NCBI RefSeq assembly: GCF_024296665.1
Contig: NZ_CP100762.1
Coordinates: forward strand, 1,550,001 to 1,614,000
From: Salinilacihabitans rarus
GTDB taxonomy: Archaea > Halobacteriota > Halobacteria > Halobacteriales > Natrialbaceae
Reading direction: 5' to 3'
DNA: 64,000 nucleotides
Under the pieces are notes generated by a model. That model searched no databases and was not told the DNA's origin. It was given only the letters and a program-made list of their open reading frames with translations. Below, one piece after another: positions 9,979-57,366 of this stretch (positions are counted from its first letter, which is position 1; each line of letters begins with the position of its first letter). The position numbers and the translations under genes are program-made.

Positions 9979-10080
9979 TCGACGCCTCGACTAGGGGCGG
10001 CGGTCGCTTGAGGGTGTCGCGACGGCGGCTCGCTCACCTCGCCTCGCTCGCGGGTCGCTTCCGTTCCCCGCTCGCGTTTC

Positions 10081-10097
10081 CGAGGGCGTCGCCTTCG
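10081..10097. repeat. Near-palindrome in a low-complexity spacer
   Basis: CGAGGGCGTCGCCTTCG is an inverted repeat with 8-base arms and one mismatch pair. It lies in a run of CTCGC/CTCCGCTC-type sequence at 10011-10103 downstream of the rhodanese gene. Similar sequence (TTCCGAGG, palindrome, CGCTCC) is found inside the deoxyhypusine synthase gene near 56836-56870, which suggests a dispersed element. Confidence 0.4.
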
Positions 10098-10103
10098 CTC
10101 CGC

Positions 10104-10997
10104 TCAGTCGCCGCCCTCGCCTCGCTCTATCGGCGCCCGGATCAAGTTCCCCCACTCGGTCCACGATCCGTCGTAGTTGTGGACGTCCTCGTAGCCCAGC
10201 AGTTCGTGCAGCGCGAACCACGCGATGGCCGACCGCTCGCCCACCCGGCAGTAGGTGACGACCGACTCGTCGCCGTCGATGCCCTCCTCGGCGTACATCC
10301 GTTCGAGTTCGTCGGGTTCCTTGAACCGGCCGTCGTCGCGCAGGTTGGTCTTCACCGGGACGTTCGACGCGCCGGGGATGTGGCCGCCGCGCTGGGCGGT
10401 CTCCTGTAGGCCCTCCGGGGCGAGAATCTCGCCGGTGAACTCCTCGGGCGAGCGCACGTCGACCATCGGGACGCCGGCCTCGCGGGCCTTGTCCACGTCG
10501 TCTTTGTACGCGCGGATGCTCTCGAACGGCCCTCTGGCCTCGTACTCGACGGCGTCGAACTCCGGTACCGCCTCGGTCAGCGGGTAGTCGTTGTTCACCC
10601 AGTAATCCTTCCCGCCGTCCAAGACGCGGGCGTCGTCGTGGCCGTAGTACGTGAACTCCCAGTAGGCGAACAGCGCGAACCAGTTGGGAATCCAGCCGTT
10701 CCCGTAGAAGACGACCGTCGAGTCCGCACTGATCCCGTGGTTCCCGACGACCTCCTCGAAGTCCGCCTTCTTCAGGACGTCCCGCTGTTGCTGGTCCGAG
10801 AGGTCCTCGTCCCACTGGAGGCCGATCGCGCCCGGAACGTGGCCGTCGTCGTACCGCGACGGGAAGTCGCCCTCCTCGGGGGACTCGGGGCTGTTCACCT
10901 CCACGATACGGTAGTCGGGGTCGTCCGCCTGAAACTCGTCCAGGTGGTCTTCGACCCAGTCCGCCGAAACCAGGACGTCGTTGTCGGAGTCAGCCAT
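10104..10997 (-). CDS. Thiosulfate/3-mercaptopyruvate sulfurtransferase, two rhodanese domains
   Basis: A 297-residue tandem rhodanese. The N-terminal domain (about 1-140) is inactive: the loop reads VVFYGNGW with no Cys. The C-terminal domain has VDVRSPEEF and the active loop YCRVGERS with Cys250. It moves sulfane sulfur from thiosulfate or mercaptopyruvate to cyanide or thiols. The ATG at 10997 is the only good start, with a 5' region shared with the divergent YkgJ-type gene. The CRVGER loop is of the thiosulfate-type sulfurtransferase of haloarchaea; the physiological acceptor is unknown. Confidence 0.92.
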   Translation of the reverse strand: MADSDNDVLVSADWVEDHLDEFQADDPDYRIVEVNSPESPEEGDFPSRYDDGHVPGAIGLQWDEDLSDQQQRDVLKKADFEEVVGNHGISADSTVVFYGNGWIPNWFALFAYWEFTYYGHDDARVLDGGKDYWVNNDYPLTEAVPEFDAVEYEARGPFESIRAYKDDVDKAREAGVPMVDVRSPEEFTGEILAPEGLQETAQRGGHIPGASNVPVKTNLRDDGRFKEPDELERMYAEEGIDGDESVVTYCRVGERSAIAWFALHELLGYEDVHNYDGSWTEWGNLIRAPIERGEGGD

Positions 10998-56280: not shown

Positions 56281-57366
56281 CTACTCGCCCCCCTCGCTCC
56301 CCTCGACGCGCTCGCGCGCCGCCGCCACCACGAGCGGGAGCGTGATCGTCGCGTCGGCGTAGACCGAGACGTTCCGGGCGTCTTTCTCGAGTTTCCCCCA
56401 CGAGCGCGCCTCGTCGAGCGTCGCGCCCGAGAGGCCGCCGGTCCGCGGCGGGTCCATCGTCAACTGGACGGCGTAGTCGTACGCCCGCGGCGTGACGAGC
56501 ATCGTCTGGAGGGTGAAGTTCTTCGGGACGCCCCCGCCGACGACGAACGCGCCGGCCTCGTCGGCCTCGAAGGCGAGGTCGGTCAGCGCGGTCATATCCG
56601 CGAGCGCGTCGAGGGTGAACGCGGTGGTCTGGGAGTACATCCACGCCTGCAGCCCCAGCACGGAGTCCTGCACGGCGGGACAGTAGATCGGCACGTCCGA
56701 CTCGTAGGCCGCGGCGGCGATGCCGGGGTCCTCGGCGACGTCCTCGCGTTCGTTCACCTCGGCGTTCGCCCGGCCGAGTTCCTCGGTGAGTCGCCGGATC
56801 GAGACCGCGCCCTCGCGGTTCGCTCCGCTCGGCTCTTCCGAGGCGCGTTGCGCCTCGCGCTCCTCGCACTCGGCTTCGAGGACGGGGAACACCTCCTCGC
56901 GGAGGTGTCCCTCGAACGCGGCGAAGTGCTCCTGCGGGAGGTAGACGTTGTAGATGCGGTCGACGCCCTCCTCGCGCAGGGTCTCGTCGTGTTCGCGTTC
57001 GGTCTTGCCCTCGGCGTGGACCTCGCCGTGGTGGTGCTTGCCGCCGATGGCCTCGATCGAGTCGTGGGTGAGGTTCGCCCCCGTCGTCACGAGCGCGTCG
57101 ACGTAGCCGTCCCGGATCAGGTCCGAGACGATCTTTCGCATCCCCGTCGGGACCATCGCCCCCGCGAGGCCGAGGAAGACGGTCACGTCGTCGTCGAACA
57201 TCGCCGCGGTCACGTCGACCGCCTCGTGCAGGGTCGCCGCGCCGACGCCCGCCTTGCCGTACTCCGCGGCGAGTTCGCCGACGGTCATCCCCGCGCGCGC
57301 CTCGGCGTGGCCGACCGGGTCGTGGGAGAAGGTCTCCCGCTCGGGTTCGTGGTGCTCGTCGCTCAT
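56281..57366 (-). CDS. dys: Deoxyhypusine synthase
   Basis: A 361-residue enzyme that moves the butylamine part of spermidine (agmatine in some haloarchaea) onto a Lys of aIF5A. It has LGLAGAMVPTGMRKIVSDLI, DALVTTGANLTHDSIEAIGG, and the catalytic Lys in GGGVPKNFTLQTM. Between PVLEAECEERE and VSIRRLTEELGRAN there is an extra stretch, about 15 residues (AQRASEEPSGANREGA), coded by a palindromic low-complexity repeat; see findings. ATG 57366 gives the MSDEHHEPER start. Confidence 0.93.
   Translation of the reverse strand: MSDEHHEPERETFSHDPVGHAEARAGMTVGELAAEYGKAGVGAATLHEAVDVTAAMFDDDVTVFLGLAGAMVPTGMRKIVSDLIRDGYVDALVTTGANLTHDSIEAIGGKHHHGEVHAEGKTEREHDETLREEGVDRIYNVYLPQEHFAAFEGHLREEVFPVLEAECEEREAQRASEEPSGANREGAVSIRRLTEELGRANAEVNEREDVAEDPGIAAAAYESDVPIYCPAVQDSVLGLQAWMYSQTTAFTLDALADMTALTDLAFEADEAGAFVVGGGVPKNFTLQTMLVTPRAYDYAVQLTMDPPRTGGLSGATLDEARSWGKLEKDARNVSVYADATITLPLVVAAARERVEGSEGGE
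56815..56876. repeat. Palindromic low-complexity insert inside dys
   Basis: The stretch contains GAGGCGCGTTGCGCCTC at 56840-56856, a perfect 7-base-arm hairpin with GTT loop, between CGCTCCGCTCGG and CGCTCCTCGC. Similar wording occurs in the spacer at 10070-10110. It keeps the reading frame of dys. Confidence 0.5.

Follow-up and report, generated by a model that had tools for sequence, protein, structure and literature searches.

The dys gene for deoxyhypusine synthase (56281..57366, minus strand; open reading frame and NCBIfam NF002630, E 7.8e-159), located in the window, i.e. the entire 64,000-nucleotide stretch of Salinilacihabitans rarus DNA that was analysed, is host to an in-frame palindromic element. 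The whole element is the 48-nt sequence CGCGAGGCGCAACGCGCCTCGGAAGAGCCGAGCGGAGCGAACCGCGAG (56812..56859, minus strand). Relative to the nearest empty genes, which read TGC GAG GAG GAG GGG GCC at this site, the net gain is 45 nt or 15 codons (56815-56859, minus strand), encoding the peptide REAQRASEEPSGANR. An earlier sequence-only reading had drawn attention to a perfect hairpin, GAGGCGCGTTGCGCCTC, adding about 15 residues to dys, and in both respects this is confirmed: the hairpin lies at 56840-56856, in frame, and with its flanks forms an 8-bp stem with a 3-nt loop (CGAGGCGC-AAC-GCGCCTCG, followed by a conserved 3' GA; 56837..56857, minus strand). However, the element is not the single 17-nt palindrome of that reading but a unit of about 48 nt with two hairpins, the second of which falls in the region CGAGCGGAGCGAACCGCGAG (56812..56831, minus strand) and has the stem GCGG/CCGC in the dys copy.

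The expectation that the 15 residues would be absent from relatives was likewise borne out: none of the 80 dys loci retrieved from titled haloarchaeal genomes contains the insert, and 27 of the 29 other loci read in the family also lack it. Among 125 genomes of the family the same position is filled in two others, in G034 by GSEASRASESSSGANREK, which is clearly the same element, and in G056 by GGEVEATSDAAGGTSREGGP, a worn copy. When the insert is left out of the dys tree the three filled genes fall on separate branches, requiring three presence/absence changes, at least two of which are forced. In an AlphaFold model of the protein, whose mean pLDDT of 56 is too poor for placing the loop, the insert lies between two predicted helices. 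As a separate observation, a close dys homologue was not found in many family genomes, including single-contig ones (g2, g11, g13, g14, g15, g17 and g22); these possess only a second DHS-like protein with 35-39% identity. Either dys has been replaced in these genomes or it has diverged highly, which would be odd for a gene thought to be essential.

The similarity noted earlier between the dys element and a spacer at 10070-10110 is real, though the spacer copy is looser than supposed and lies at 10047-10099 on the minus strand. This diverged intergenic relative (GCGAAGGCGACGCCCTCGGAAACGCGAGCGG...CCCGCGAG), recovered by a joint pattern and with a weak fold, begins right behind the TGA (plus-strand 10104-10106) of the upstream minus-strand gene, whose orientation it shares. 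It shows the layout of the dys copy and the common tail, with a different and imperfect first stem. In 464 kb of the genome these two copies are the only matches to the joint pattern TCGGA-N2-8-CGARCGG-N3-16-CCGYGAG. The step from two copies to a dispersed repeat is hardly justified by the window alone, where the core with up to 3 mismatches matches twice against 1.86 expected from shuffles, and TTCGCTCCGCTC with up to 1 mismatch twice against 1.36 expected. Thus, the two copies in the window are by themselves not beyond chance, whereas the core is far beyond chance both genome-wide and class-wide.

Wider searches with the 22-nt core CGAGGCGC-NNN-GCGCCTCGGA, using the reversed core as control, bear out the dispersal. 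In the genome of the window's organism the core with up to 3 mismatches matches 39 times, both strands included, and the control 3 times; 9 copies have at most 1 mismatch. At the latter threshold the 125 family genomes contain 490 matches, a figure in which some palindromic copies count once per strand, compared with 3 for the control. Across the class Halobacteria the core is present in 287 of 394 genomes, with 8 control matches. A search of the whole genome for the palindrome with a free loop recovered 11 loci, 7 of which share the 8-bp stem, the 3-nt loop, the 3' GGA, the host strand and the codon phase. The general excess of perfect hairpins is small. In a 400 kb sample of this genome that is partly non-random, some stretches having been picked around known matches, k-mer enrichment missed the element because it is low-copy and variable, and mainly recovered a CRISPR array; the array has 41 copies of GTTTCAATCCCGTGCTGGGTTTTCTGGTCTCTGCGAC (G000:C1 ~561,100-564,100; L095, minus strand).

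The copies are identical at the level of DNA and not merely of the encoded peptide. When a pattern with the synonymous positions left free (GARGCNCNNNGCGCNTCNGAN) was run on 61 genomes, all but ~13 of the ~150 matches listed kept the consensus GAGGCGC...GCGCCTCGGA. In addition, 94-95% of copies have G two bases ahead of the core GAG, at a position that the search pattern does not cover. The synonymous positions are therefore fixed in a manner indicating a repeat copied as DNA rather than peptide convergence. The element is ~44-55 nt long, typically about 48, carries no gene of its own and is ordered as (A/C)GCGAG..., hairpin 1 (CGAGGCGC-NNN-GCGCCTCG), GA, a short spacer, CGA, hairpin 2 and GAG. 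The stem of hairpin 2 differs in sequence among copies (GCGGC/GCCGC, GCGGT/ACCGC, GCGGGC/GCCCGC, GCGGGG/CCCCGC and ACGGC/GCCGT were seen), yet its pairing is kept by covariation: 66 of 74 inner pairs are Watson-Crick, a count somewhat inflated by related copies, against 23 expected under independence (permutation p below 5e-5), and stems of at least 5 bp are present in 99 tails as compared with 36 control segments. Some copies have alternative first hairpins of the form CGCGGARC-NNN-GYTCCGCG, encoding AExSSAD in the same codon phase. The consensus is free of stop codons in all frames, and just one frame encodes an acidic, flexible and halophile-compatible peptide, SEAxxASDxSSGDEPRE. A search of Rfam recovered no curated RNA family above threshold, SAM-IV being a sub-threshold match (E 0.69). 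We also observed that the 3-nt loop of hairpin 1 is non-random and shows reverse-complement pairs (CAC/GTG, GTA/TAC, GAA/TTC and AAC/GTT), as if the loop were invertible.

To examine location, 177 distinct copies from this and other genomes of the class, in a sample leaning to the first genomes listed, were read individually. While the occurrence of both coding and noncoding copies proposed earlier holds, nearly all lie in genes: 168 are on one strand and in one codon phase (162 assigned automatically, from open frames whose third-position GC is haloarchaeal, and 6 by eye), a single copy (locus L312) has a different phase, and ~8 do not lie in genes. The shared phase is GAG GCG Cnn nGC GCC TCG GA, corresponding to the peptide motif SEAxxAS[DE]...SGxxPR[DE]. 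The 8 noncoding copies out of 177 are fewer than expected (p 1.4e-4, binomial, with 13% noncoding sequence assumed). As identified by NCBIfam and Pfam, hosts in the window's genome include the RNA polymerase subunit A'' (rpoA2), GpmI, PurN/PurH, PurK, an acyl-CoA dehydrogenase and an HAE3/MMPL transporter, and those elsewhere include TrpA, SufD, an E2 acyltransferase, PHA synthase, aspartate aminotransferase and a large helicase. Further hosts elsewhere are siroheme decarboxylase, IleRS (ileS), LeuRS (leuS), IlvD, PurL and threonine synthase, along with the annotated CobN of Natronococcus occultus and FAD-linked oxidase of Halorussus aquaticus. The window's genome additionally has worn copies in an apparent FAD-linked oxidase (L158) and PurL (L161), at sites used in other genera.

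Presence and absence could be followed most closely in purK. Among 70 genes, 25 are filled, with 16-23 residues in the compared stretch, 41 have an empty site of six residues (e.g. FETSDG) and 4 are of odd lengths; the element is also absent from bacterial PurK structures. There is a single insertion point, ACG AGC GAC GGC becoming ACG [AGC GAG GCG ... CGA GAG] AGC GAC GGC. The purK tree requires at least 14 presence/absence changes, gains and losses counted together, at this one codon with clean empty sites, and gene pairs that are ~96% identical, such as those of G060 and G061, differ in the presence of the element. In the purK empty sites no target-site duplication is separable from the element's own GCGAG ends. 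Some of these sites read ACG CGC GAG GGC, which might represent the footprint of recombination between two GCGAG ends.

These observations support the reading of the dys insert as part of a dispersed, in-frame palindromic repeat. We consider it probable that it is one copy of a gene-less DNA element of the class Halobacteria, which is mobile or copied and is tolerated in loops. Under such a model, insertions in the wrong frame, in the wrong orientation or in a folded core would be removed by selection, and the survivors would be those copies situated in loops of conserved proteins, where an acidic, flexible frame might be tolerated in high salt. Copies would then come and go at fixed permissive sites with a near-neutral effect on the host protein. 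Mobility could be provided by an enzyme acting in trans or by hairpin-driven copying during replication or repair, and loss could come about when the GCGAG ends recombine with each other. No enzyme that would mobilise the element was found.

Two features fit this model less well. One is that random insertion followed by selection predicts more intergenic copies than 8 of 177, unless those have drifted beyond the search pattern; the other is that copy number is unrelated to Y1 transposases, which would be the obvious movers of hairpins. With so few intergenic copies, an adaptive role or a mechanism biased to coding sequence is conceivable. The element might be an adaptive module, kept or spread because an acidic, disordered loop helps in high salt or because hairpins in the mRNA tune the expression of the host gene. 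Consistent with this are the near-confinement of copies to genes in one phase and strand, the compensatory pairing of hairpin 2 within coding sequence and the fact that in several genera purK, purL and dys are each filled repeatedly at one and the same codon. Nevertheless, most relatives are empty at any given site, even in ~96% identical genes, so no site needs the element; moreover, the host functions are scattered, and the fixed synonymous positions favour copying over selection for a peptide. Hence, we regard an adaptive module as unlikely. A related form, in which the element is domesticated in the sense that its copying is biased to coding sequence or its retention is selected, is comparably doubtful. 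If true, it would mean that haloarchaea share a transferable ~16-acidic-residue cassette, precisely gained and lost at fixed positions of essential enzymes.

The patchy distribution might alternatively stem from homologous recombination, moving insert-bearing segments between haloarchaeal species after few original insertions. Haloarchaea recombine frequently, and one site is filled across many genera; however, trees of 300-nt segments require as many presence/absence changes at the purK site (16-17) as elsewhere (15-18), filled purK genes are often locally closest to empty ones, and the local trees show no hint of flanks moving along with the insert, making this explanation rather improbable. 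An IS200/IS605- or RAYT-type Y1 (HUH) transposase acting on a single-stranded hairpin, as proposed for REP elements, which are linked to RAYT Y1 transposases, would be in keeping with the conserved bases flanking the hairpin and with the presence of Y1 transposases in 93 of the 125 family genomes. Against it, copy number in these genomes is uncorrelated with Y1 count (rho 0.03, p 0.74), on which ground such a transposase was rejected as the driver, median matches are 3.5 in genomes lacking Y1 and 3.0 in those with it, and the window's genome has zero Y1 genes; thus, we consider its involvement quite improbable. That GC-rich, codon-biased sequence by chance yields palindromes and the dys insert is an ordinary change in loop length accords with the window-only counts and with Halorubrum, where the same dys loop varies in length through shorter inserts unrelated to the element, but is refuted at genome scale by the excess over the reversed control, the fixed synonymous choices and the clean empty sites of dys and purK, with the large viral collection IMG/VR giving one unrelated site only, and is accordingly extremely improbable. 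That IMG/VR match (one site on three contigs) is in another frame and was judged a chance match, not a copy of the element.

To our knowledge, Rickettsia (and Wolbachia) are the main genera in which in-frame palindromic elements have been described. The Rickettsia palindromic elements (RPEs) are bacterial stem-loops of 105-150 bp, dispersed in frame in conserved, unrelated genes as well as intergenically, for which a mechanism of movement is not established (PMC2229807, PMC10969869). The likeness to them suggested by the sequence-only reading stands as an analogy rather than as demonstrated sequence homology: the haloarchaeal element is also many-copied, dispersed and palindromic, occurs in frame in conserved genes and occasionally between genes, and is absent from homologues of its hosts. 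In contrast, it is archaeal, ~48 nt long with two small GC-rich hairpins, in one phase and nearly always in genes; by this analogy it appears to work like the RPEs but is not classed as one. The REP, BIME and REPIN sequences are similarly short palindromes of 20-40 nt in many dispersed copies (PMC3733652, PMC3116915). The haloarchaeal element is not a REP because REPs are extragenic by definition and rarely overlap genes (PMC12306157), whereas it is intragenic (~8 of 177 outside genes), with a copy number independent of Y1 count. MITEs, reported from Halobacterium and Haloquadratum (PMC10969869), are likewise small non-autonomous repeats, but the in-frame element is much shorter, and at purK any target-site duplication would be inseparable from its own GCGAG ends. 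The perfect inverted repeats of up to 284 bp in protein-coding genes of Nematomorpha mitochondria (PMC6649704) differ in that the haloarchaeal copies constitute one dispersed family with a common sequence. No earlier description of the haloarchaeal element was found in the open-access library searched.

The element thus extends such insertions to a different domain from Rickettsia, as an archaeal family found across a whole class, in hundreds of copies, often in essential genes, and with many filled/empty pairs. The long-standing question of whether such an element is a selfish passenger or a source of new protein sequence can thereby be tested in organisms that are free-living and genetically tractable. 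It should also be borne in mind that inserts seen in haloarchaeal proteins could be copies of it, with consequences for indel-based taxonomy, alignments and the interpretation of loops in structures.

Certain loci have more than one copy. In purH of the window's genome (L150) a single insert, EARSASDASSAERSSADSRAAEPRDDGDQPR, is made up of two different stacked subfamilies of the element, which suggests insertion into or beside an older copy. Tandem amplification within one gene is seen in a helicase-like gene (L212 ~1000-1190), with four copies at 57-nt spacing, and near the C-terminus of another (L292 ~1000-1165), with four at 48-nt spacing. At L307 two intergenic copies (1501 and 1680), 179 nt apart, have identical 40-nt upstream flanks and are followed by a T-run, resembling a terminator or a piece of a larger intergenic repeat.
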